A stretch of DNA of 64,000 nucleotides. It comes from Ascidia mentula. Its lineage: Eukaryota; Chordata; Ascidiacea; Phlebobranchia; Ascidiidae. The number at the start of each line of letters is the position of its first letter. The first letter of the stretch is position 1. Shown here in pieces: positions 46,905 to 62,604 of this stretch. The notes beneath the pieces are model-generated. The model ran no database searches and was not told the DNA's origin. It was given only the letters and a program-made list of their open reading frames with translations. The DNA lies in assembly GCA_947561715.1 (NCBI GenBank), contig OX387200.1:20338501-20402500 (forward strand), given 5' to 3'. Position numbers and translations under genes: made by a program.

Positions 46905-48839
46905 TCACAAAATGGGCTCTGTTTCATTCCAGTCAATTTGTGCCCGGGGCCACTTTGTACGAATACAATGTTCTAGGGGTGGAGTCAAGTCTTCATTTAT
47001 ATTTTTATTCAGTTCTTTTGAACTTGGAACAACAGTCAACTTAATAAATTCATCCTGGTTGGCCAATCCATCATAATACTCAAGATCGAATGATTCCAGA
47101 TCAGAACTGGCATTCACAACATTTGTATTCAAACAAAACAACACTGTGAAGTGACTTTCACTGCATACAACCCAAATAGGATACTTTGGTGTTTTGTAAA
47201 ACTCGCCAACTTTGCAAGAGTCATAGTGCTCAAACAGTGATAACAACCCAACATCACAGCGACTTTTGATACCTTTCAGGATTGTGGCCTTATCAAGCCT
47301 TACTGCATTGTCGAATGCATTAGACGTTGCTCTGCCAGTCAAGAGAAGGTTGACCATTTCTTGAGTACAGTAGTTGTGGGCACCCATTAATTTTCCATTT
47401 GGTTCGTCCATATCTGATCTAACATTGTTTAATCCCCTGGATAGAATAGCAGAATACAGCAACATTAGGCAAGCTCCTTTGCCTTGCAGATAGGACTTGA
47501 TGTTTTCCTGAACCCCAAGTTTAAGTTTTTCTTGTGATCCATACTGGATTATGGTGATGGTTTCAGAAAAGTTGTCGGGCCTATATGTTGCAGAAGGGCT
47601 AAAATCACATCCAAGCTTTGTTACAACTAGATAAGCAGACGAATCATTACCAGCTCTCCATATGATTTCAGAGATAGCCATAACGAGAGCTTTGTTCCGT
47701 TCAATGCTGCTGGCATTGAGCATAGCCAGTTGTGGAACAAAATTGCTTTTGCAGAACAATAAATGTTTTAAAACTGTGGCCTGGACAGATGCAAGGACAC
47801 CACATGGTCCACCTTTTTTCTGCACAATTCCAAATCTCAATGACTGAGGCCTTCCATCCAAGCAGTCACAGAAAGAGAAGCTCTGATTCACCCACTCCGG
47901 TGGATAAATCCCCTTAGTTGAACCTAGCAACAGCTTTCTCATTTTCTCAACCAGTTCAACATTTTTCCAACTGTAAACTTCAGTGTCTTCGACCGTGTTC
48001 TCGCTAATGGTTATAGTGGAAATGTCTAGGTTGTTCAAACTTTTCGGATGTGGCTCCTTTTTCTCCGATTGTTTTGATGGTTTTTTGCTACGAGGCATAT
48101 CCCATGGAAAGTTAGATATTGGTTCTGTGACCTCCTGCTCCAGCTTTATGCTACTTATTGCCTTCTCAGGGCTGGCAGACAGCATTTCAAATAGAGAAGT
48201 TGCTTTGGGTTTTGTTGCAGGCTTTTTACTACCAACTGAACCAACAACAGTTTTGCTTCTTTCCAACTCTTTCTTGGACTCAACTAATTTATTGCCCCAT
48301 AAACTCGTCGGTAAATCATCACTAAAGGGTCTGGACAAATCCATTCTTGCTGCTTTAGGAACAGAATCGTTCATATCAACATTGCAATCATCCAGTTCCT
48401 CGATATCCAGTGGTGTCACACTTTCGAGTGGGACAGACTGTACAGTTTTAAGTGCACTCTGTTTATTCAATGAGTTATCGAGACCCTCATCTTCGACATG
48501 CTGCTCTGTCTGGTTTGACACAGGAAAACATGTTAAACCATTTGGTGAATTTTGTACTGCTGAAATATTTCTAATTATCACTTCTAGCATGGTCCTTAAT
48601 GGATCATTGCTATGTTTGTTAGCTCTCATCCAGCCCTCTATGTTTAGACTTTGTGCAAGTTTTAGGCGATTGTTGATGCTTCCACTAGTGCGTGGTAGCT
48701 CCTGGTCTAACATTTGCAATGTTGCAGTGCACTTTTTTCTGCTCAGAAACTCCCTTACAATCGACGCAGACAAGTCTTCGGTGCACGATAAAGTTTCCAT
48801 TGTCTTTCGCCCTCCTATTTTAATTAGTTGGGTCGACAT
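46905..48839 (-). CDS. MINDY4: MINDY-4-type lysine-48 deubiquitinase
   Basis: Intronless frame of 644 residues (human MINDY4, FAM188B, about 757). MINDY enzymes are cysteine proteases that trim K48-linked ubiquitin chains. The catalytic Cys sits in VQKKGGPCGVLASVQA at about residue 346, and the catalytic His in SHFTVLF at about residue 563. Around the active site are SLRFGIV, ACLMLLYSAILSRGL, LMGAHNYCTQEMVNLLLTG and KYPIWVVCSESHFTVLF, as in FAM188 proteins. The N-terminus has a LisH-like helix pair (IVREFLSRKKCTATLQML), and the region between is Ser/Lys-rich and low in order. MINDY3 is the closest alternative, but the long N-terminal region favours MINDY4. The lack of introns contrasts with most neighbours. 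Confidence 0.92.
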   Translation of the reverse strand: MSTQLIKIGGRKTMETLSCTEDLSASIVREFLSRKKCTATLQMLDQELPRTSGSINNRLKLAQSLNIEGWMRANKHSNDPLRTMLEVIIRNISAVQNSPNGLTCFPVSNQTEQHVEDEGLDNSLNKQSALKTVQSVPLESVTPLDIEELDDCNVDMNDSVPKAARMDLSRPFSDDLPTSLWGNKLVESKKELERSKTVVGSVGSKKPATKPKATSLFEMLSASPEKAISSIKLEQEVTEPISNFPWDMPRSKKPSKQSEKKEPHPKSLNNLDISTITISENTVEDTEVYSWKNVELVEKMRKLLLGSTKGIYPPEWVNQSFSFCDCLDGRPQSLRFGIVQKKGGPCGVLASVQATVLKHLLFCKSNFVPQLAMLNASSIERNKALVMAISEIIWRAGNDSSAYLVVTKLGCDFSPSATYRPDNFSETITIIQYGSQEKLKLGVQENIKSYLQGKGACLMLLYSAILSRGLNNVRSDMDEPNGKLMGAHNYCTQEMVNLLLTGRATSNAFDNAVRLDKATILKGIKSRCDVGLLSLFEHYDSCKVGEFYKTPKYPIWVVCSESHFTVLFCLNTNVVNASSDLESFDLEYYDGLANQDEFIKLTVVPSSKELNKNINEDLTPPLEHCIRTKWPRAQIDWNETEPIL

Positions 48840-49529: not shown

Positions 49530-49537
49530 ACGAAGGT
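49530..49537 (+). repeat. Target-site duplication, left copy
   Basis: ACGAAGGT directly abuts the left end of the element. The identical octamer follows the right end at 54595-54602. The base before it differs on the two sides, so the duplication is exactly 8 bp. Confidence 0.92.
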
Positions 49538-49869
49538 ACGGTGGCCCACAAGTGCCACCGCGAAATATTAACGAATCGCGAAATATATTTGCACTGCGCG
49601 AAATATTTTTTCACCGCGCGAAATATATTTACATCGCGCGAAATATATTTTCACTTCGCGAAATATATTTTCACTGCGCGAAATATATTTCGAGATCGCG
49701 AAATATATTTTCACTGCGCGAAATATTTTTTCACCGCGCGAAATATATTTACATCGCGCGAAATATATTTACACCGCGCGAAATATATTTTCACTTCGCG
49801 AAATATATTTTCACTGCGCGAAATATATTTGCGCTGTGCGATGTATATTTTCTTCGCGCGAAATATGTT
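49538..49869 (+). repeat. Left terminal inverted repeat with 20-bp array
   Basis: After about 38 bp of unique terminal sequence come about 15 units of CGCGAAATATATTT plus six variable bases (such as TCACTG, ACATCG, TCACCG, TCACTT, CGAGAT). The phase is exactly 20 bp. Units carrying AAATATTTTTTCACCG occur at 49601 and 49721, exactly 120 bp apart, showing a six-unit higher-order repeat. Confidence 0.92.
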
Positions 49870-50001
49870 GTTAGTTTTTATTAGAAATGCCTGGCGGGAA
49901 GTCTAGTTGTTTCAAGTTTTCACGTACATCTATATGCTACAGTCTGTGCATTTAAGTTCAAATAGAAAAATAGTTTGAGTGTTTTATCCCTATTTGTAAT
50001 C

Positions 50002-52194
50002 ATGTACTGCACAAATTGTGGAAGGCTACTTTTTCAAGAACACTTGTATTGCGCACATTGCGGACGCGGTAAGTGGTTTATTCTTTAATTGTCGTTTATC
50101 AGCCTTGTCAATCTGTTGTTTTGAGGTAACATTCTTGTAAATGTTAATATATCAGACAGACATATATGCCAGTAAAATAATATTGTGCAAGTATAATTAG
50201 ATTGATTCTGTGTTGCAGAGAAAGCCCATGGCAGCAATCATCCTACTTTGTCTAAATCTGAAAATGAGGGTTCTGTGATTGAAAATGTTAATTCCAGTAT
50301 AAATGGTTAGTATGCCAAACAACCTGTAGCTGAACAACTTTGGTTAACTTTGCAAAACAAAAGTTTAATAATACATGTAAAATCTACAGGTACATCATCC
50401 ATGAAACGCAAAAGTGCAACAGAAATTTTGCCATTTAGTGAATTTAAAGCAATGAAAGGCTCACAATGGAAGCAAAGAGTGTCGAAAAAGGATGAAAATG
50501 AGGAAGTGTGTGTTAACATAGGCATGCTTGAATATGGAGGGAAAGATTTTAAGTTGAAGCCAGTTCGGGGTCAATCCATTATAATTAATGTTGGAAGAAA
50601 AGAGTGTGTTCAATCCATACTGAATAAAGCCAAAGAACGGTACTTTCAATTTTATCCAAAGAGTCAAAGACATGGTGCAGTATACCACCTTGCTTTTAAA
50701 GATGGACGAATTGTTGAAGTATTGCCTGGAACAAATGAGCCATTCACTCTAGTCAAATACAAGGAGAGCATTGGTAAAGATTACAAGAAGATCATGTTAT
50801 ATCTACTTGAATGTGACAGTGAAGATGATGAAACAAATGATGCAAGTAACATTGAATGCTCTGGTAATGGAAAACAATCTCCCTCTATTCTACAAAGTTC
50901 ATTGCCTGATTTTACTGATTACTTTGATTCTAGTGAACTGGACAATATTATTGGCAATCAATGTGATTTGTTAGCCCCAAAACTCGAAAGGTATGATGGC
51001 AAAAAATTCAATGATTTGAATGCTGCACTAGAGTCATTGCATAAAAAAGTTGATGATTTAGACCAGTTGTTTATTTGTGTGCGCCGTGGGGCTCATATTC
51101 AACGTCAACTTAACTTGTGGAAAAGAGAAACCAAAAAGAAATCAGCAGAAAAGAAATTGGTTGTCCAATTTCAAGGTGAGACAGGGATTGATTCTGGTGC
51201 AATGGCTAAGGAGTTCTTTAGTCTTGTTTTGCAAAGTATTTGTGAACAATTCTTTCCTGATGGTGCCCCAGTTGACTCAATGCTTCATGTCCAAAATGGA
51301 CATTTCAAAGCATGTGGTGAAATAATAGCTGCAAGTTTGGTGCAAGGTGGGCCAGCTCCACATTGCTTACACCCAAATGTGTTCACAATTCTTGCTAACA
51401 TGGATTCAGTTGATATAACCAAACTAAATCTTGACCAACACTTTACTGAGAATGAAGGTCAACTGATACAGAGAGTTTGTGCTGACCCACTTGTTCATAC
51501 TGACATAATAACAGAAAATGGATACACAGGCAAAATCAATATTGATAGCGCCAGTGAAATTAGTCGCACAATCATGGTGAGCATCACTAATAAGCGGCTT
51601 TGCTACCTCAAAGAGTTTGCTTCAGGGCTGAGTCTGTTTGGTTTGTTCAATGTTGTCAAAAATAATGCCTTACTTTTTGCACCTTTATTCATTCCAGGCA
51701 AATTGACTGTTGATGCCAATTATGTGTCAAGTTTACTGCAACCGCAATATTCCTCAAAAAATTCCACAAAGCGGTGCGTAGAGGAGAAGATAATGGATAA
51801 CTTTCAAGATTTCTTGAACTATATTGAGGATAACTGTATTCGGGCCCCCACAGAAGAGGTTTTGGCTTACTGCTGTACTAACAGTGAAAATGAAGTCAAT
51901 GTAGAAAATATTGGAGAGACAATGACTGCAGCAGCTGATTGTACTCCAGCTGGTGTGCTAGGTTGGCTAACAGGCCAAAAACATAGGCCAATATTTGGTG
52001 ACAGTTTGTCCATATCTGTGGAATTTAATCATGACTGCATGAGCAACAACCCAAACCACACCATCTGTTTTCCTGTTGTTGGTGCATGTGCGAAAACAAT
52101 TACGTTCCCTACAAAACATATGGAAGAACTTCAAGATTTCAAATCCATCTTTATTACAGCAATGTCCAATGGCCAGGCATTTGGTTTACATTAA
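50002..52194 (+). CDS. Transposon-borne HECT-type E3 ubiquitin ligase
   Basis: Three exons (50002-50068, 50219-50305, 50390-52194) encode about 652 residues. Exon 1 is a zinc ribbon with cysteines at 3, 6, 17 and 20 (CTNC, then CAHCG). A Ser/Thr-rich linker and a middle region follow (MLEYGGKDFKLKPVRGQSI, a possible ubiquitin-like beta-grasp segment). The HECT domain runs from about residue 290: LVVQFQGETGIDSGAMAKEF matches the HECT N-lobe, GGPAPHCLHP the substrate-adjacent loop, and GACAKTITFPTKHMEELQDF the C-lobe with the likely catalytic Cys, ending AFGLH like HECT C-termini. The closest host relatives by pattern are G2E3-like HECT proteins. It could ubiquitinate the transposase, chromatin or host defence proteins; none of this is shown. 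It is convergent with the transposase. Confidence 0.88.
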
Positions 52195-52798
52195 AAAAAT
52201 TCTTCTGTTTCATTGTTTATGTTCATAAGTAGTTGTCACTTCATTGCATGTTTCAAGTGTTATATGGCAAAACAGCAATTTAGATTTTTTACGTACTCAC
52301 TATTGTGTTCGTGACCGTCAGCATTGTCGAAGCAAAATTAGTGTTTTATTTTTTTATTCAACTGCCTCGTGTTTGTTTTGGTGAAACGTATTTCATCCTT
52401 TTATACCAAAATTGTTTTTACCTGACACTTACTATTGCATTTTTGAGGTACTGCTGCATAATTGTGAGATTTTTGTGCCACTGCTACTTGCCACTGTACA
52501 TTTATGCACTCACTTTTCTTCATTTACACTGCATGTTGTCTTTCACACTTTTCTATTCCATCATCTGTTTGCAATACAATGGGAAAAAATTTCGATTTGT
52601 ATCCTAGCATTTACAAACCACCTCTTTTAGATTCTAGTAGTGCAGTACGCTGATTGTTAATCAGTGAGTAAAAAAACAATTTTTCACAAAGTTGCCTGTG
52701 TTTGTTGGTGTAATTTGACAATTAACATACTTGCACTAACAACAAAGTTCAATATACTGAAGTACAAACATGCATACATGGCTGTGGGCTTTGACTTT
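52195..52798. other. Spacer between the two transposon genes
   Basis: This 604-bp AT-rich segment between the two convergent stop codons holds both 3' UTRs. No further gene was seen. Confidence 0.6.
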
Positions 52799-54100
52799 TT
52801 ATTCTTTTGCAACCTCCATTATCCCTTTGTACATTGCCAGTGCTTCTGCACAGGAGGTTGGCATGACAAATCCAAGTTCAGTTCGAACATAGTCAAAATA
52901 TTCCTCATATTCGTTCACTTCTTCGGGTGGGGAAATATCATTGCACACCACTTGAAATTTCTCTTGTGAGACTGCATTTATCATGTCTGCTCTTCCACCA
53001 TACCTTTCTGGCATTAAGTAAAGTAAATTTGGGCGACCAGCTATAACATTGTGTCTTGATTTTCGTATTCGATGACTATTCCAGTGATCCATTACAAAAT
53101 TTAAGTCACTTTGTAGAACTTTGGAGAAGCAATACCACACACACTCCTTGCTTAAAGGAAGTGAATAATCAACAACACCTTTAAACTCGAGATCACCAAA
53201 AAAGTTTCGCCACCAAGAAGTACGAAACTTGCACAATGTTGACCACCAACTTTCAATTCTCTGATTCCTTGGTGAAGGAACGTATCGATGTGCATTAATA
53301 CTGTTTCTGAAAAAGCACTGTGCTGCTGCCAATATCCCATTTTCTGTGCCCAAATCAGACACAATTTGCACTGGACAACCTTGTACATGTGAAACAGTTC
53401 TAAGGTACATGGAAGCTATAGTGTGTGGGCATTTATTGGAGCGTATAACATGAAGCCATAGGACCTTACGACTAAAACCATCAATGGCTGCATGTATGGA
53501 AAAACCAAATGGCTTTAATTTATCATAACCATCTATATGCCAGGCATAATTGGGCCCTGGATTGTTATACTCTCTGCGCTTCAGACGATGGCCCCTCCTG
53601 AGTTCACAGCCATCAGGATCAATTTTATTCAAAACTTCTGCAACAAAGGATCTTGGAACTCTCAAACCCTCCATCTCCAAACCATGCCACACAGAACGGT
53701 ACCCCCCACATGAAGATGGACCTTCTAAAATTTCTTTGATTCGTTTTTCAGCATCATTTATAATATTCGGATCTTTTTGCCAAGCACCACGTCTATGCAG
53801 CCCCATTTCTTGTAAGCGTCTTTTCAAGGTTCTCAAACTGAAAGTTACATTGTGGTAATTTTGCAACAAATGCAAAATTTCAGAGTGTTCATATCCTAGT
53901 TGAAAGTAGTGGGTGATGAGGTGTGTTTCATCAATGGTGGTCCCTGCAAGGAAAAATTGTATTGTCCAAACCGAAATAACAAAATTGCAATGAATGTAGG
54001 CCAACTGGAAATACACAATACAAACACACTTACCATGGCCACAATGGGTACAAAATGAATGATCAAGTCCCACATAGTGATCACAATTTAAACAATTCAT
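52799..54100 (-). CDS. Transposase, integrase-fold (rve) DDE type
   Basis: Two exons (54100-54034, 53943-52799) encode 403 residues. Exon 1 is a zinc ribbon with cysteines at 3, 6, 17 and 20 (CLNC, then CTHCG). Residues 28-72 form a helix-turn-helix-like region (YFQLGYEHSEILHLL, TLKRRLQEMGLHRRG). GGYRSVWHGLEMEGLRVPR at about 102-120 resembles the IS3-type pre-catalytic domain. The catalytic core has D160 (WHIDGYDKL), D219 (VSDLGTENG) and E253 (RNQRIESWW), with 33 residues between the last two. AAIDGFSRKVLWL is the typical rve strand. The C-terminal third (MDHWNSHRIRKSRHNVIAGRP) is the usual tail of this family. All three acidic residues are present, so it may be active. It is not a retroelement integrase, because no gag or RT is linked to it. 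Confidence 0.9.
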   Translation of the reverse strand: MNCLNCDHYVGLDHSFCTHCGHGKCVCIVYFQLAYIHCNFVISVWTIQFFLAGTTIDETHLITHYFQLGYEHSEILHLLQNYHNVTFSLRTLKRRLQEMGLHRRGAWQKDPNIINDAEKRIKEILEGPSSCGGYRSVWHGLEMEGLRVPRSFVAEVLNKIDPDGCELRRGHRLKRREYNNPGPNYAWHIDGYDKLKPFGFSIHAAIDGFSRKVLWLHVIRSNKCPHTIASMYLRTVSHVQGCPVQIVSDLGTENGILAAAQCFFRNSINAHRYVPSPRNQRIESWWSTLCKFRTSWWRNFFGDLEFKGVVDYSLPLSKECVWYCFSKVLQSDLNFVMDHWNSHRIRKSRHNVIAGRPNLLYLMPERYGGRADMINAVSQEKFQVVCNDISPPEEVNEYEEYFDYVRTELGFVMPTSCAEALAMYKGIMEVAKE

Positions 54101-54234
54101 TCAGTTGAACAGTCCCTGCCAACAACTGGAGTAGGTAAATGCTTACTTAGCTGATATAGTCGGTCACCCGTCGTGCAAACATACGAACGGAGTGAAATCA
54201 ACGAGAACCTGGCCTGTCACTACATTTTGCGTCA

Positions 54235-54594
54235 CAAGAAATATATTTCGCGCGATGTAAATATATTTCGCGCGATGTAAATATATTTCGCGCAGTGAAA
54301 ATATATTTCGCGATGTTACGAAATTTTATTTGTAGCGGTCGAAATATATTTCGCGATCTCGAAATATATTTCGCGCAGTGAAAATATATTTCGCGAAGTG
54401 AAAATATATTTCGCGCGATGTAAATATATTTCGCGCGATGTAAATATATTTCGCGCGGTGAAAAAATATTTCGCGCAGTGCAAATATATTTCGCGATCTC
54501 GAAATATATTTTGCGCGGTGAAAATATATTTCGCGCAGTGAAAATATATTTCGCGCTTCGTTAATATTTCGCGGTGGCACTTGTGGGCCACCGT
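54235..54594 (-). repeat. Right terminal inverted repeat with 20-bp array
   Basis: This is the reverse-complement counterpart of the left array: 20-bp units of AAATATATTTCGCG plus variable bases. A 30-bp different insert (about 54312-54341) breaks the array near its inner end. Read inward from the element end, the order GCACTG, TCACCG, ACATCG, TCACTT, TCACTG, CGAGAT matches the left arm apart from one extra ACATCG unit. Confidence 0.9.
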
Positions 54595-54602
54595 ACGAAG
54601 GT
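54595..54602 (+). repeat. Target-site duplication, right copy
   Basis: ACGAAGGT, identical to the octamer at 49530-49537. FNTB begins 33 bp after it. Confidence 0.92.
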
Positions 54603-54635: not shown

Positions 54636-57600
54636 ATGGATTGGTTGGAAAAAGGAGATATGGATATGAAAATGAATGACGACGAAGGACTTGCAACTTA
54701 TACAAGCGTTGAGCAAGTACGTTCAAGTTTAGTTTACGCACTGGGCTAATGAATATCGATAACTTTGGATAAAATATACTTAAATGCATTCCGAATCCCG
54801 TTATAACAATCTATGGCATCCTTTTCATGAATGTTATGGGTAGATTCTTGTGTATAGGGCATTGCCTAACAAGACAAACCATGTCTTTGCCATTAACAGG
54901 AGGGTGTCGAACACAATGTGATCAAGAAATATAAAGACTTTGAAGAATTATCAGACATTCAACCTGAGTAAGACAATAGCTTTTGATTTATCCCCAAAAA
55001 CATTATATGCAGAAGAGGATTAGTGTTTTGCTTTTATATGCTACTTTGATTGTTAATTACAAATGTAAGAAAGAAGACTTTACTCATTCAAAATGTCCTA
55101 AAAGAGATATGCCATAATCTCTTTGCAGAGTATTCTTAACTAGAGATCGCCATGTTGAATATCTGTTCAAAGGCTTGGATATGCTTTCAAGGTCGTATGA
55201 GGTGCTTGCTCTTGCAAAAAAAGTTATATTGTTGGTTAAAAAACTTAGACACTGTGTATTTTTTGCAGTGTTTGGATGCAAGTAGACCATGGTTGTGTTA
55301 TTGGATTGTTCACAGTTTGACTTTGCTGGAACAAGAAGTACCTGAAAATGTCAAATCCAGGTAAGGATTATTTGTTTCCTTAAAGTCTATCAACCTGTTT
55401 GTGTTCTCAAAAAACGTTTTGTTGTAAATTTATTTTATCTTCATATTTTTTTAGGGTGTGCAGATTTCTTGCAAAGTGTCAGAATCCCACTGGTGGATTT
55501 GGAGGTGGTCCAGGCCAAATTTCTCATCTTGCTCCTACGTATGCAGCAGTAAATTGCCTCTGTTGTTTACAGATTGACGAAGCCTATAACGTCATAAACA
55601 GGTTGACTATTTATCCATTTTTTAGTAATTGTAAAATGTACACTTTTATTTTTGTTGATTGTAACTGGTGGCGGCAGTGATTCTTGTAAAAAAAAAATCA
55701 TATTTCCCTTCAGAAAAACCCTGCTTGAATATCTGCGGAGAATGCGTCAACCTGATGGCAGTTTTACTATGCATGATGGTGGGGAGTGTGACACAAGAAG
55801 TGTTTACTGTGCAGTGTCAGCAGCTTCCTTGACTGGGCTTTTAAATGAAGACTTGGAACTGTTCAATAATTCAGTGCAGTGGCTTGTAAGGTAAGTTAAA
55901 TTCATAAATGTAAAGAGATATATGACTATTATGAAGTACCAATTGTGTTCTTTGAGGTTATTATTGTTTTCAAATCAATTTCTCTTTTTTTGACATTTAT
56001 GGAAACATTGGTCTTTTAGCTTCTAATCAGTCAACTATTTTTACATAAAAAAATATCATCAGTGTCAAAGTGAAGAATAAATTTACATTTCAATGAGACA
56101 AACTCAGCCTTTTTTGAAACAAAAACACTCAGTTTCTTTAACTTCAGGTGTCAAACTTATGAGGGTGGAATGGGAGGTTGTCCCGGTACTGAAGCACACG
56201 GGGGCTACACATTCTGTGGTTATGCTGCACTGGTTCTTCTTGACCACTACAAGCTAGTTGACACTGACCGTATGTTGAGATGGGTTACAAACAAACAAAT
56301 GACATTGGAAGGTGGATTCCAGGTACAATTCAAGTTTAAAATAATATGCATCGAATTTGTTAATATTAGTTGCTGTTGTACCTTAATTTAATTGTTAATT
56401 AATTGTTGTTGTACCTTGTATTCTACCCTGTTGGTTTGGATGGATTTACCATGTGACCATGTGACCTTGTGACCGAATGACATTGTGGGTTGGTGATGGT
56501 CAAAGTGTTGGTGCTTAGTGCATTGTATGATTGTATTGAGTTAGGTGCATGGTTGTAGCAAGTTGTTTTACTTTATAGTTAACATTAATTTATATACTTG
56601 TTTTATAAATCTATTTGAATAAGATTCTATTTGAATAAGGTTATATTTGAATAAGACATATATTAAATTCCTGGAATATTGGGTAATGACTCCCAAGAGC
56701 TAAAGACTGCTTTCTATAAATACTGTCAAGGACTAAAGACTGTCCAACAGGTACAGTAATTTAGCAACAAGTGGTAGCAGAGGATCAGGAATAGAAGAAA
56801 TATGTCAAAGAAGGTCCCACCTAAGTTCAAGGAGGACTTACCATATGTTTCATGGAGAAACAAAATAGAAATGTGGCAACTAGTCACATCAGTAGACAAA
56901 AAAGAACAAGCAATTGTGGTTCTACTAGATGCTTTGGAAGGACATCCCAAGGCTGAGAAGGCGGTTTCTGAGCTAACAAAGGAAGATTTGCATGCGATAG
57001 AAGGCATGGAGAAGTTGTTGGCAAAATTGGATGCATGTTTTCAAGGTGAAAAGGTTGATGATGCATATAGTGCTTACATTGCTTTCATAAACTTTTCACA
57101 AAAAGATTTATCCATTGGTGATTATGTCATTGATTTTGAACATAAATATCAGAAAATGTGTGCACATGAAATGAAGTTGCCAGATGCTGTCTTGGCATTT
57201 AAGCTTTTAGAAGGTGCATGTTTAAATGAAACACAAAGACAATTGGCCCTAACTTTCGCACATGACATGACTTTTGATAAAATGAAATCTGCACTAAAAC
57301 GAATATTTACCAGCAATGAATGTTCCACTGCTTCCAATTCAATTTCGACCAAAGAAGAGGCATTTGTGACAAAGAAAAGGTTTTTTTCATCCAATGATAA
57401 AGTTAAACCTAAGAAGAAGTTAAATCCTCTTGACAAATTTGGCAAAATTTCCAGATGTGTTATATGTGACTCCAAAATGCATTGGGCTGTTCACTGTCCA
57501 CATAAGCAGAAGAAAGAATTTGTACAGTTAAGTGAAAAACTTGAAGAAAAAGTAAACTATATTCTGCTCTCAGAAACGAAGACCAATGAGATTCTGGTTG

Positions 57601-60600
57601 CTGACTCGTTTGGATGTGCAATATTAGATACAGCCTGCACAAGAACAGTTTGTGGGCAAAAATGGTTCAACACTTATCTTGAAGCCTTAAACAAAAACTT
57701 CAGACGCAAGGTAAAAGTAGGTAAAGCTAAGTCTATTTTCAAATTTGGGGATGGTAGACAAGTGATATCTCATCAGCGAGCAAATATACCTGCACATATA
57801 GCTGGAAAATCTTGTAGCATTGACACCTCAATTGTTCAAGACGACATTCCCTTGTTATTGAGCAAAACATCACTTAAGAAAGCAAACACTACAATAGATT
57901 TACAACATGATACTGTTACAATGTTTGGAGAAAAGGTAAAGCTATTGGTTTCCAGTAATGGACATTATTGTTTGTACATTTTGCCTCGACGAATGAATAA
58001 GAATAACCAATGTGAAAGAATTTTACTGTTTGAAGATAAACTTTCCAAGTCAAAGCTCACCAAAGCAATTTTGAAATTGCACAAACAGTTTGGTCACGCA
58101 TCCAAAGGCAATTTGGAGAAACTTTTAAAAAATGCTAATTCTTGGCAGGAAGAATACACTCACATAATAGAAAGTGTGATTGATAGCTGTGAAGTGTGTA
58201 AATTACACAAAAAGCCACCTGCTAAACCTGTTGTTGGATTTTCATGGTCAGAGAAATTTAATGATGTTGTGGCTATGGATCTACATGAGCTGGAACCAAG
58301 TTTGTGGTATTTTCACATTGTTGATATGTTTAGCCGATTTAGTAGTGCAGTAATAATTCGTAACAAAAATGCGTCTACAATTGTAAAATGCTTCATGAAG
58401 TATTGGATTAGTATATTTGGGGCACCGCATAAAGTTTTAAGTGATAATGGTCTTGAGTTTAATAACTCAGAGTTTCATGATATGTGTGCTAATTTTAACA
58501 TTGATATTGTGACTACTCCTGCTTATTCTCCGTGGTCTAATGGGTTGTGTGAAAGACACAATAAGATATTGACTGACATTTTGTGCAAAGTGAAAGCAGA
58601 CATGAAATGTGATTGGGACATTGCACTGGCTTGGGCATTGAGTGCCAAGAACTCAATGATTAATAACAATGGGTTCAGTCCAAATCAGTTGGTATTTGGT
58701 GCCAACGCAAACTTACCTACAGTGTTGGTTAACAAATTACCAGCACTAGAAGAAAAGGCCAACAGTGAGAATGTTGGTATGCATATTGCAGCTTTGCATG
58801 CTGCAAGAAGAGCTTTTGTGGAAGCTGAATCGTCCGAGAAGATTCGGAGAGCATTGAGATCTCAAACCAGAAAGACTGGTGAGAGGTATGACATTGGTCA
58901 AAAAGTGTACTATAAACGTGATGGTTCTCCATGGAGAGGACCGGCTCATGTTTTAGGCCAAGATGGCCCTGTTGTTTTTCTACGACATGGAGGACAATAT
59001 GTGAAAGTACATGTTTGTCGTATAGAACCTGCTGATGCGAAGATTTCTGTAAGAAAACAAAGTGGAGATGACGTTGAAAATTACAGTTCGTCAACTGATG
59101 AAGAGGAGATTGTAGACAAGGAAGTTGAAAGAGATAACACAGCAAATGTAGATTCTCATGTGCCTGTTAAGGTTAAGGGCTCTCTTGTGAACAAAACAGT
59201 GCTGTTTAAGCAAAATGGAGAAGAGTTCTCAGCCAAGGTTTTGAGCAGAGCTGGGAAGGCCAAAGGGAAATACAAGAACTGTTTCAACATTGAGTACAAT
59301 ACTCCTGAGAGTAAAAAGGGTATGAAAGAATGGAAGAATTTTGAAGAAGTAGAAGATCTGGCTGTAACAAACAATGATTGTAATGTGGTTACAGAACATG
59401 TATACAGAGCTGTTTCTAATACAGTTTCATTTGAAGAAGCGAAAATGGCAGAGTTAAAAAGTTGGAAGGAGAATGGTGTTTATGAGGAGGTGGCAAAAGG
59501 TGGTCGAGGTTGCATTTCTTTGAAGTGGGTCTTGTCTCTTAAAGAAACTAATGACGGCATTAAACCTAAAGCAAGGTTAGTGGCCAGAGGATTTGAAGAG
59601 GTTAATCAAGATTACTTGGATAAGGAGTCTCCCACTTGCACCAAAGATGGTCTTCGGTTGTTGATGTGTATATCCAGACAAAAGGCCTGGAAACTGAATT
59701 GTATCGATATAAAAACTGCTTTTTTGCAGGGTGAAGCTTTAAATCGAAATTTACATGTTGTGCCGCCGAATGAGGCAAACTGTCCACCAGGCACAGTTTG
59801 GAAGTTAAAGAAGTGTGTGTATGGATTGGTGGATGCTTCACGTTCATGGTATGACAGAGTAAAGCATTTTATGATTTCAGTTGGTGCAAAAATTAGTTTG
59901 TTGGATCCTGCTTTATTTTACTGGCATGACGGCAACAGTTTGCAAGGTATGGTGTCAGTGTATGTTGACGATTTTATGTGGATTGGGTCGAAGCAGTTTG
60001 AGAGTTCTGTTATTGAACGTATTCGCCAAACGTTTAAAATCGGCAAAGAGAATCAGAACAATTTTAAGTACATAGGACTGGAAGTAAACGAGGGTAAAGG
60101 CATGATCAACATAAGCCAAGCTGAATATGTTGAACAATTAAAGCAGATGAAGATCTTACCTGCAAGAAAAGAGAAACTCAATGATGAACTTTCTGTGGAG
60201 GAAAAAGATATTCTGAGAATGAAAATTGGTCAGTTATTGTGGTTGTGTACTCAAAGTCGACCAGACTTAAGTTTTGATGTTTGTATGCTTGCATCCAGAT
60301 GTAAGCATAGTACAGTAAAGGACATTCTTGATTGCAACAAAGTAATCCGAAAGGCTCAAGCAGATTGTATGATGCTAAAGTATCAAAATCTGGGACACAA
60401 TCAGAATTTGAAGTTGGTTGTCTATACCGATGCTGCTTTTGGCAATTTGTCAGATGGTGGCAGCCAAGGAGCCTATCTTTTATTTTTGGTTGGGGAAGAC
60501 AACAAATGTAATCTTTTAAGTTGGCAATCAAAGAGGATTAAAAGAGTTGTAAGAAGTACTCTTGCTGCAGAAACATTGGCAATGACTGATGGCATAGATG

Positions 60601-62604
60601 CTGCCATATACTTCAACTCACTCTGGTGTGAGATAATGCAGGGAAAGCAAATGGAAACAAAGCTTCCAGTACAAGTGGTGACAGACAACAAGTCGCTATA
60701 CACGGCTGCATATACAACAAAAAATGTAGCAGACAAACGTTTGCGTATCGATGTTGGCTCTTTACGTGAAATGATAAATGACTGCGTCGTCACAGAAATA
60801 TCATGGGTACCGACAAAAGAACAGTTAGCAGATTGTCTAACAAAGAAAGGTGCACAAACTGCAAATCTTGGAATAGTACTTTCCACTGGTTGTTTTTCTT
60901 CAAAAAACAAAAGAGAGTGAGATTGTTAATATTAGTTGCTGTTGTACCTTAATTTAATTGTTAATTTAATTGTTGTTGTACCTTGTATTCTACCCTGTTG
61001 GTTTGGATGGATTTACCATGTGACCATGTGACCTTGTGACCGAATGACATTGTGGGTTGGTGATGGTCAAAGTGTTGGTGCTTAGTGCATTGTATGATTG
61101 TATTGAGTTAGGTGCATGGTTGTAGCAAGTTGTTTTACTTTATAGTTAACATTAATTTATATACTTGTTTTATAAATCTATTTGAATAAGATTCTATTTG
61201 AATAAGGTTATATTTGAATAAGACATATATTAAATTCCTGGAATATTGGGTAATGACTCCCAAGAGCTAAAGACTGCTTTCTATAAATACTGTCAAGGAC
61301 TAAAGACTGTCCAACAGGTACAGTAATTTAGCAACAGAATTAATATTGCAGTTTACAAATAATAAAATTTTGTTTCAGCCTAAAGGTAAAATTTATATTT
61401 GTGTGGAAATAATGCATTGAAGAAAACAAAATGTTTATTATGTTTTGGTTATTAATGCCCTGACATAGCTCTTGAAAATGTGTGAAAAAGTTTAGCAGTG
61501 TTTAAGTAAAACATTGCTTGAAGACAAAACTGGTATATACCTGTGATTATAAATCAGGATGTTATCAAGGACATAATTTTGGCTGGTGTCATAATTTTGG
61601 CTGGTGTATATACTATACAGTAGTATATACTGTATATGCATATATTAAAAATGCGTTTTTGAATTTCATTAACAGGGACGAACAAACAAGTTAGTGGATG
61701 CATGTTACTCATTCTGGCAAGGTGGTCTTCTTCCTCTCATCCACAATACACTTGAGGAAGAAGGAGGAGTGGAAGGGGAGGTTGCGGAGGCCCAGGTGAG
61801 AGAATGTTAAATTTGTTTTTGTTTTTTTAGTTTTTGAATTCACAAGAGAATCATGTTGCCTGTAAACTTTTGTATGGTTTGGGAATAAAAAAGGGACTGT
61901 GATATTTCAGTTTAAATTTAGTTAAGGTTGTTACATGACTTAAACTATTTCAAAAATGTGTTGCAGGAAACTTGGTTGTATGACCAAAAAGCACTGCAAT
62001 GTTATGTTCTTCACTGTTGTCAGTCATCATTCGGAGGCCTAATAGACAAGCCAGGAAAGTATGTGTAACTCAATGCCAAATTGTTATTGGTTAATGTGAA
62101 TGCTTCAGCTACATTGATCCTGGAAATCATTCCTCGTTCTGTTAAAAACACTGATGATTTCAAACTCTTGACCTTTATATCACAAGCAGCATAGAAATGT
62201 TTATTTTCCTTGTCTAAAATCAGTCAGCTCTCGTACTCAACACAAATATATTTCGTTTTAATAAGCAATGCCAGGGTCTTTTGCTTTACAAATAACATTC
62301 TATGAAAGAGGATATTTCACCCATAAAGAATATTCCAATGCAATTTGCTTTTAGATCACGAGATTATTATCACACTTGCTATGCATTGAGTGGTTTGTCA
62401 TCCTCACAGCATTGCCCCAACAACCACCAAATTCATGTGGGACCAAAGTCCAACATACTGGTAAGTGTATGTAATGTTGCCAGTTGAATATGTGACAACT
62501 TTTATTTTAAACAGCTCCCGGTCCACCCAGCATTCAACCTTACATATGATTCAGTTCGCAAAGCAATGCACTATTTTAATAAAATATCTTTGGATGATCA
62601 GTGA
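54636..62604 (+). CDS. FNTB: Protein farnesyltransferase subunit beta
   Basis: Eleven exons (54636-54716, 54900-54967, 55129-55201, 55269-55360, 55455-55601, 55714-55890, 56148-56322, 61676-61795, 61967-62058, 62355-62460, 62515-62604) encode 406 residues (human 437). The catalytic beta subunit attaches farnesyl to CaaX-box proteins such as Ras. Alpha-alpha barrel repeats carry the prenyltransferase motifs GGFGGGPGQISHLAPTYAAV, PDGSFTMHDGGECDTRSVYC, EGGMGGCPGTEAHGGYTFCG and GGFQGRTNKLVDACYSFWQGG. The zinc ligands are visible: Asp and Cys in VDACYSFW and His in DYYHTCYALSG. The N-terminus (DRHVEYLFKGL) fits FNTB. Intron 7 (5.35 kb) is swollen by a Copia element. The start was chosen as the first Met after the transposon. 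A poly(A) signal is at 62705-62710. Confidence 0.95.
56358..56769 (+). repeat. Left LTR of the Copia element
   Basis: A 412-bp direct repeat, TGTTAATATTAG to AGCAACA, nearly identical to the right LTR. A TATAAA-like box (TTCTATAAATACTGTC) lies about 60 bp before its end and may be the promoter. Confidence 0.93.
56802..60920 (+). CDS. Copia gag-pol polyprotein
   Basis: One frame of 1,372 codons. The gag capsid region (about 56802-57440) is followed by a CCHC zinc knuckle (CVICDSKMHWAVHC). Then come an aspartic protease (LDTACTRTVCG), an integrase with an HHCC-like zinc region (FGHASKGNLEKLL to CEVCK) and its DDE core (AMDLHE, SDNGLEF, NGLCERH), reverse transcriptase with YVDDF and, last, RNase H (VYTDAAFGN, DNKSLYTAAYTT). 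Integrase before reverse transcriptase is the defining Copia order. The frame looks whole. Confidence 0.93.
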   Translation: MSKKVPPKFKEDLPYVSWRNKIEMWQLVTSVDKKEQAIVVLLDALEGHPKAEKAVSELTKEDLHAIEGMEKLLAKLDACFQGEKVDDAYSAYIAFINFSQKDLSIGDYVIDFEHKYQKMCAHEMKLPDAVLAFKLLEGACLNETQRQLALTFAHDMTFDKMKSALKRIFTSNECSTASNSISTKEEAFVTKKRFFSSNDKVKPKKKLNPLDKFGKISRCVICDSKMHWAVHCPHKQKKEFVQLSEKLEEKVNYILLSETKTNEILVADSFGCAILDTACTRTVCGQKWFNTYLEALNKNFRRKVKVGKAKSIFKFGDGRQVISHQRANIPAHIAGKSCSIDTSIVQDDIPLLLSKTSLKKANTTIDLQHDTVTMFGEKVKLLVSSNGHYCLYILPRRMNKNNQCERILLFEDKLSKSKLTKAILKLHKQFGHASKGNLEKLLKNANSWQEEYTHIIESVIDSCEVCKLHKKPPAKPVVGFSWSEKFNDVVAMDLHELEPSLWYFHIVDMFSRFSSAVIIRNKNASTIVKCFMKYWISIFGAPHKVLSDNGLEFNNSEFHDMCANFNIDIVTTPAYSPWSNGLCERHNKILTDILCKVKADMKCDWDIALAWALSAKNSMINNNGFSPNQLVFGANANLPTVLVNKLPALEEKANSENVGMHIAALHAARRAFVEAESSEKIRRALRSQTRKTGERYDIGQKVYYKRDGSPWRGPAHVLGQDGPVVFLRHGGQYVKVHVCRIEPADAKISVRKQSGDDVENYSSSTDEEEIVDKEVERDNTANVDSHVPVKVKGSLVNKTVLFKQNGEEFSAKVLSRAGKAKGKYKNCFNIEYNTPESKKGMKEWKNFEEVEDLAVTNNDCNVVTEHVYRAVSNTVSFEEAKMAELKSWKENGVYEEVAKGGRGCISLKWVLSLKETNDGIKPKARLVARGFEEVNQDYLDKESPTCTKDGLRLLMCISRQKAWKLNCIDIKTAFLQGEALNRNLHVVPPNEANCPPGTVWKLKKCVYGLVDASRSWYDRVKHFMISVGAKISLLDPALFYWHDGNSLQGMVSVYVDDFMWIGSKQFESSVIERIRQTFKIGKENQNNFKYIGLEVNEGKGMINISQAEYVEQLKQMKILPARKEKLNDELSVEEKDILRMKIGQLLWLCTQSRPDLSFDVCMLASRCKHSTVKDILDCNKVIRKAQADCMMLKYQNLGHNQNLKLVVYTDAAFGNLSDGGSQGAYLLFLVGEDNKCNLLSWQSKRIKRVVRSTLAAETLAMTDGIDAAIYFNSLWCEIMQGKQMETKLPVQVVTDNKSLYTAAYTTKNVADKRLRIDVGSLREMINDCVVTEISWVPTKEQLADCLTKKGAQTANLGIVLSTGCFSSKNKRE
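60924..61336 (+). repeat. Right LTR of the Copia element
   Basis: A 413-bp direct repeat nearly identical to 56358-56769, ending AGCAACA immediately before the GAATT duplication. Confidence 0.93.

Follow-up and report, generated by a model that had tools for sequence, protein, structure and literature searches.

The element, its ends and its two genes

Within a 64 kb stretch of the Ascidia mentula genome (the window, G000:C67:20338501-20402500; the genome searched comprises 195.8 Mb in 79 contigs) lies an element of 5059 bp at positions 49537–54595, reading TACGGTGGCCC...GGGCCACCGTA and delimited by comparison of its copies. Between inverted ends and long terminal arrays, it carries two convergent genes, one on the plus strand for a divergent HECT protein with putative ubiquitin ligase activity and one on the minus strand for an integrase-like transposase. 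We consider it probable that this is a recently active cut-and-paste transposon of the IS3EU/GingerRoot type, the second gene of which encodes a HECT-type E3 ligase.

The element is flanked by a 6 bp target-site duplication (TSD), CGAAGG, identical at 49531–49536 and 54596–54601, and ends in perfect terminal inverted repeats (TIRs) of 39 bp (49537–49575, plus strand; 54557–54595, minus strand), which are free of mismatches when the count starts at TACGG. An earlier note on this DNA had started the ends at ACGG, between duplications of 8 bp. The inverted ends stand, but the copies give TACGG..CCGTA; a duplication is likewise present, because the octamer ACGAAGGT is found just twice in the whole 64 kb, but its length does not hold. 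TSDs were compared in 14 elements, namely eight of the same family, three with related ends (L069, L070 and the 1058 bp L002 derivative) and three distant ones (L077, L079 and L080), and 13 of them have an exact 6 bp TSD when counted from TACGG..CCGTA or TA..TA. Counted from ACGG, all eight bases match in only one of the eight same-family pairs, that of the window, the other seven giving 7, 6, 6, 7, 6, 0 and 6 matches; the 8 bp repeat is an accident of the window copy and the real TSD is 6 bp. Across copies, the last base of the left flank is T and the first base of the right flank is A. A T directly precedes ACGG in 27 of the 30 tips listed for the genome, some of which are the two ends of a single element and four of which, on C70, have one flank in common, and T and A are terminal in 12 of the 14 elements, C52:9418482 and C70:18488869 having A and G at the left. 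The tips read TACGG in the window family, L069, L070 and the short derivative, and TATGG in L077, L079 and L080. Two elements from different families (C52:11666335 and L070) have GTTTAC as their TSD, and this common hexamer may hint at a target preference.

The perfect octamer on both sides of the window copy had suggested a new rve superfamily making 8 bp duplications. Against this stand the 6 bp TSD with TA..TA termini in 13 elements, the single 8 bp match among eight pairs and the published features of IS3EU set out below; the proposal is refuted by the TSD comparison over copies, and we assign it a vanishingly small probability.

Next to the TIRs lie long terminal arrays, as the earlier note had described; they consist of 20 bp units, with 14.5 copies on the left (49577–49866, plus strand) and 15.8 copies in mirror orientation on the right (54239–54556, minus strand). 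L069 has arrays of a 22 bp unit (30.9 and 27.9 copies) and L077 has arrays too (unit ~20–22 bp); in L070 and L079 the arrays are short, so that long ones are not found throughout.

In the splice model, the transposase gene consists of a first exon of 67 nt (54034–54100, minus strand), which starts with the zinc ribbon MNCLNCDHYVGLDHSFCTHCGH (Pfam Zn_Ribbon_1, E 0.045, under the cut-off), and a second exon (52799–53943, minus strand) with a helix-turn-helix (HTH) region and an rva_4/rve integrase core. Removal of a 90 nt in-frame intron would yield a protein of 403 aa, in which the core residues D160, D219 and E253 bear the numbers originally given to them. Pfam matches it to rva_4 (1.8e-25) and, under the cut-off, to rve (9.9e-4), and the NCBIfam models for IS481 (1.2e-7) and IS3 (1.1e-4) both match under their curated cut-offs. 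Scans of viral contigs with the transposases of the window and L074 and with the window HECT protein found no relatives; plasmid relatives are weak, with two records for the L074 transposase (best 4e-5) and 62 at E up to 1 for that of the window (best listed 0.5).

The HECT gene is predicted to have three plus-strand exons encoding 652 aa: exon 1 (50002–50068), in which the zinc-ribbon start MYCTNCGRLLFQEHLYCAHCGR was recognised by eye, exon 2 (50219–50305) and exon 3 (50390–52194), which contains an N-terminal region conserved in relatives and a divergent HECT domain. The introns of both genes are plausible GT-AG introns, in keeping with the two open spliced genes seen earlier. The HECT motifs also bear scrutiny: four further HECT C-lobes carried by elements have a Cys aligned to Cys618, and this Cys, the Phe at position −4 and the final Phe-Gly are invariant in all five aligned C-lobes, which elsewhere are 26%–54% identical to the first row. 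In HECT E3 ligases, the C-lobe contains the catalytic Cys, and the Phe at −4 has a role as well. PF00632 matches the C-lobes of the relatives (L069, 1.4e-9; L074, 7.1e-7), and matches to the N-terminal stretch of the window protein are found in L069 (2.0e-15), L070 (1.1e-13) and L071 (9.0e-14). Such HECT relatives have ~25%–50% amino acid identity per piece and reside in elements with transposases 40%–47% identical. A stretch like a ubiquitin-interacting motif, suspected in L074, was dropped after neither Pfam nor a regular expression found one, and a zinc-finger-like stretch within the L070 and L071 HECT proteins has no Pfam match at that place.

Both window proteins begin with a CxxC..CxxC ribbon, and both first exons are 67 nt long and stop at an identical phase, with GTAAGTG following. 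The two exons are identical at 35 of 67 nt, compared with a mean of 18.0 (sd 3.7, maximum 32) for 20000 random 67-mers from the window. In relatives, hidden Markov model (HMM) searches for the ribbon gave 6.4e-5 for the L069 HECT protein and 3.5e-5 to 5.5e-5 for that of L070. An alternative explanation is that the HECT product has lost its ligase activity and serves as a second protein binding the ends, its important parts being the ribbon and the N-terminal region. The window protein is too diverged for the Pfam model and has Ala before the Cys, where the four others aligned have Thr; retention of the Cys and the Phe at −4 in five otherwise dissimilar C-lobes speaks against it, and we judge this explanation improbable.

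Partner genes, families and copies in the host genome

Pairing of the two genes extends well beyond the window. The 46 rva_4 matches in the genome were merged into 43 loci, and HECT and alpha-kinase matches were sought within 6 kb of each. Single-protein HECT searches were added because PF00632 alone misses the window HECT gene and three loci of family B (defined below). HECT alone was found at 26 loci, kinase alone at 11, both at one and neither at five; narrowing the limit to 2 kb gives 25, 11, 0 and 7. By nearest partner, 27 of the 43 loci have HECT and 11 have alpha-kinase. At the locus with both (C1:14817597), a convergent HECT piece follows 940 bp downstream, and the kinase lies upstream beside another transposase piece, C1:14812002. 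The partner is 3′ of the transposase and convergent with it in 37 of 38 cases (HECT, 27/27; kinase, 10/11), the exception being C2:18885737, with the kinase upstream on the same strand. HECT genes without a nearby transposase match also occur (for instance, C78:13668 and C2:5558752). A chance passenger of one copy, as the HECT gene might appear from the five loci where no partner was found and the 11 that have a kinase, would hardly recur at 27 loci, its position and orientation always unchanged, among families whose transposases are 40%–47% and about 28% identical to that of the window. This possibility is ruled out by those counts and has next to no probability in our estimate; the HECT gene belongs to the element.

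Three families were distinguished. Family A (the window element, L069 and L070; ends TACGGTGGCCC) and family B (L073, L074, L077 and L078, with the more distant L076) carry HECT, and family C (L079 and L080; ends TATGGTGGCCC) carries alpha-kinase. In family B, L077 has the ends TATGGGGCGCCG and the TSD CTTTAT, whereas the ends of L073 and L076 were looked for and not found. L076 (C73:8828200-8836200) appears as a third transposase/HECT lineage, with ~4.9 kb separating the two matches. In L079, an alpha-kinase (PF02816, 3.4e-32) lies beside an rva_4 transposase, the TIRs are 626 bp long with 99.5% identity and the TSD is CATTAT. L079 (G000:C71) and L080 (G000:C69) are IS3EU elements of ~4.0 kb with TIRs of ~626 bp and are 99.2% identical over 4007 bp.

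HECT and kinase occupy the same slot in sister families, as follows from their common 3′ convergent place and from the published opposite-strand kinase of fungal IS3EU. A transposase tree of ten rows (three of A, three of B, one of C and three bacterial IS3 sequences, all but the last from the host genome) joins A with C (96/97) and sets B apart (96/96), with A itself at 80/87 and the bacterial rows separate at 100/99. A constraint uniting A and B is worse by 6.96 log units (approximately unbiased test, p 0.044). The C row is a flagged long branch, and the rows for L070 and L076 were assembled from pieces; read literally, the tree suggests at least one switch of partner between HECT and kinase. 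The HECT proteins of A and B match each other just weakly (best tblastn 4.7e-8, L069 versus L076), which would fit one HECT capture as well as two.

Copies of the window element are numerous. The 25 nt tip, at up to three mismatches, has 34 sites in the genome, compared with none for the reversed control pattern. A transposase search gave 75 matches, ten of which (the window counted) extend over the full or nearly full query at 94%–100% amino acid identity, seven of these ten being without a stop, and a search with the HECT protein gave 39. In five copies, again counting the window, the frames of the transposase and of HECT exon 3 are both open from end to end, and fragments from ten further copies show 95.7%–99.8% DNA identity to the window element over the longest match. 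These data fit recent movement, with a reservation for the C70 block described below, which is probably amplified by segmental duplication.

Several observations concern the tips and surroundings of these elements. The L002 derivative (G000:C1:3426132-3427189), with L069-type ends and the TSD CAATGA, is apparently non-autonomous. At C70:20516265-20516310 and again at C70:20597816-20597861, two element tips stand head to head, one of them without its outermost bases, pointing to nested insertion or an aberrant joint. In the window, a neighbouring host gene (46905–48839) encodes a deubiquitinase of the MINDY-3/4 type (PF13898, 1.2e-112), and its closeness to a ubiquitin-ligase transposon is probably due to chance. 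On the other side, an open frame of 1372 aa (56802–60920) with RVT_2 (1e-33) and rve (1.1e-12) domains represents a Copia-like retrotransposon; a 16 bp tandem unit, TCTATTTGAATAAGAT, occurs at 56610–56656 and 61177–61223, perhaps within its long terminal repeats.

Placement among known transposons

The element had been put forward as a candidate new type of DNA transposon. We assign it instead to IS3EU, because its TA..TA termini, 6 bp TSD, TAYGG..CCRTA tips and IS3/IS481-like DDE transposase are the published features of that superfamily; its TIRs, at 39 bp, also exceed the 30 bp published for fungal TET+ members. According to the portions of the literature drawn on here, IS3EU families always have TA..TA and usually a 6 bp TSD, and GingerRoot is the same lineage (PMC10045372). 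No HHCC domain was seen in the window element, and the portion of that survey used here does not mention a HECT gene for IS3EU/GingerRoot, Repbase entries being outside the comparison. The fungal TET+ IS3EU elements, as far as the sections used describe them (PMC12730594), are similar in their 6 bp TSD, TIRs longer than 30 bp, TAYGG..CCRTA tips and a second gene opposite the transposase; there, however, the opposite gene is an alpha-kinase and a TET/JBP gene lies between the two, whereas the window element has HECT and no TET, the kinase being found in its sisters L079 and L080. Styx of Zymoseptoria, the transposase of which has been proposed to derive from a two-protein IS3EU element, differs in being fungal and in having four coding sequences, with no HECT mentioned in the part of the account consulted (PMC10853768). 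IS481EU has a related IS481-like transposase but, in the same portion of the survey, TSDs of ~4, 15 or 25 bp, TNT..AYA termini and one gene, unlike the 6 bp and TA..TA found here; Ginger1 and Ginger2 have the rve fold in common with the window element but TSDs of 4 or 4–5 bp (PMC10045372) instead of 6 bp, and Ginger1 has an HHCC domain.

With bacterial IS3 and IS481 the element has the integrase core in common, at the level of the NCBIfam matches given above. By these features, the ends and transposase belong to a superfamily already catalogued and named; the gene pair is not described for it in the literature consulted. Searches of the open-access literature, with Repbase and Dfam outside their scope, found no report of HECT paired with IS3EU, none combining HECT, DNA transposon, transposase and ubiquitin ligase, and none in which ‘phase-specific E3 ubiquitin-protein’ stands together with transposable element. 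Repbase aside, the HECT partner is apparently an unreported part of an otherwise known type. We know of no partner ligase or kinase in bacterial IS3 or IS481. In fish and cnidarians, multi-copy genes of the ‘G2/M phase-specific E3 ligase-like’ kind may resemble the B-type HECT.

Several results weigh against the overall reading or parts of it. Pfam gave the window HECT open reading frame no family up to E 10, so that its identity hangs on a short match to E6AP (phmmer against Protein Data Bank sequences, E 4.1e-4, residues 265–298 of the frame) and on alignment to relatives that match PF00632; single-sequence AlphaFold models, computed without an alignment, are of no use, with mean predicted local distance difference test (pLDDT) values of 35.2 and 41.2. 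All HMM ribbon matches are under the Pfam cut-offs, and common descent of the two first exons is rated just likely because the common CxxC pattern forces part of their similarity and L069 has no intron behind its ribbon. One of the 14 elements, C70:18488869, has no TSD. No partner was found at C52:17297238, C69:18576975, C70:20470459, C71:12772687 and C71:17200508. Finally, seven of the 43 rva_4 loci fall within one stretch of C70 (19.8–21 Mb); because the four C70 tips listed have the same flank, this block is probably a locally amplified segment carrying the element, and its loci are probably segmental rather than independent copies.

Possible roles of the HECT protein

The IS3-like transposase would use its zinc ribbon and HTH region to bind the TIRs and the 20 bp arrays, and would excise the element and join the TA..TA ends across a 6 bp stagger. 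The HECT protein, with a similar zinc ribbon, could be brought to the same ends or the same complex and ubiquitylate a protein there. The first choice of substrate would be the transposase in the strand-transfer complex, which would thereby be cleared for repair; within the overall reading, we regard such action as quite possible, if short of an even prospect. As a second choice, a host silencing factor could be the substrate, which within the same reading is possible but rather doubtful. In either case, the protein may help to finish or to protect transposition.

Because alpha-kinase sits in the same 3′ convergent slot in sister families, that slot may supply a protein-modifying activity; its fixed position and the exchange of HECT for kinase favour such a role over a structural one, as judged from gene arrangement. 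We tentatively propose, while considering it unlikely in this full form, that IS3EU maintains a slot for a modifier of its own transposition complex, in which HECT and alpha-kinase are exchangeable, and that in the window lineage a ribbon exon common to both proteins guides them to the arrays. The modifier could instead work outside the transposition reaction as a counter-defence, HECT targeting for degradation a host factor of silencing or DNA repair, and the kinase of the sisters achieving the same by other chemistry. Exchange of partners fits a target outside the element, and in fungal IS3EU the TET/JBP gene between transposase and alpha-kinase is read, in the sections of the account used, as an escape from methylation silencing (PMC12730594); on the other hand, the fixed convergent slot and the similar ribbons suggest work at the element’s own ends. 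We hold counter-defence to be possible, though on balance doubtful.

If action on the transposition complex is borne out, the window element would be a eukaryotic transposon encoding its own ubiquitin ligase for taking down the transpososome. IS3EU is a little-studied superfamily, and a second gene that is either kinase or ligase, always adjacent to the transposase and nearly always convergent with it, makes post-translational control by eukaryotic cut-and-paste elements of their own activity testable. The pairing also carries a warning for genome annotation, in that some multi-copy HECT genes may belong to transposons.

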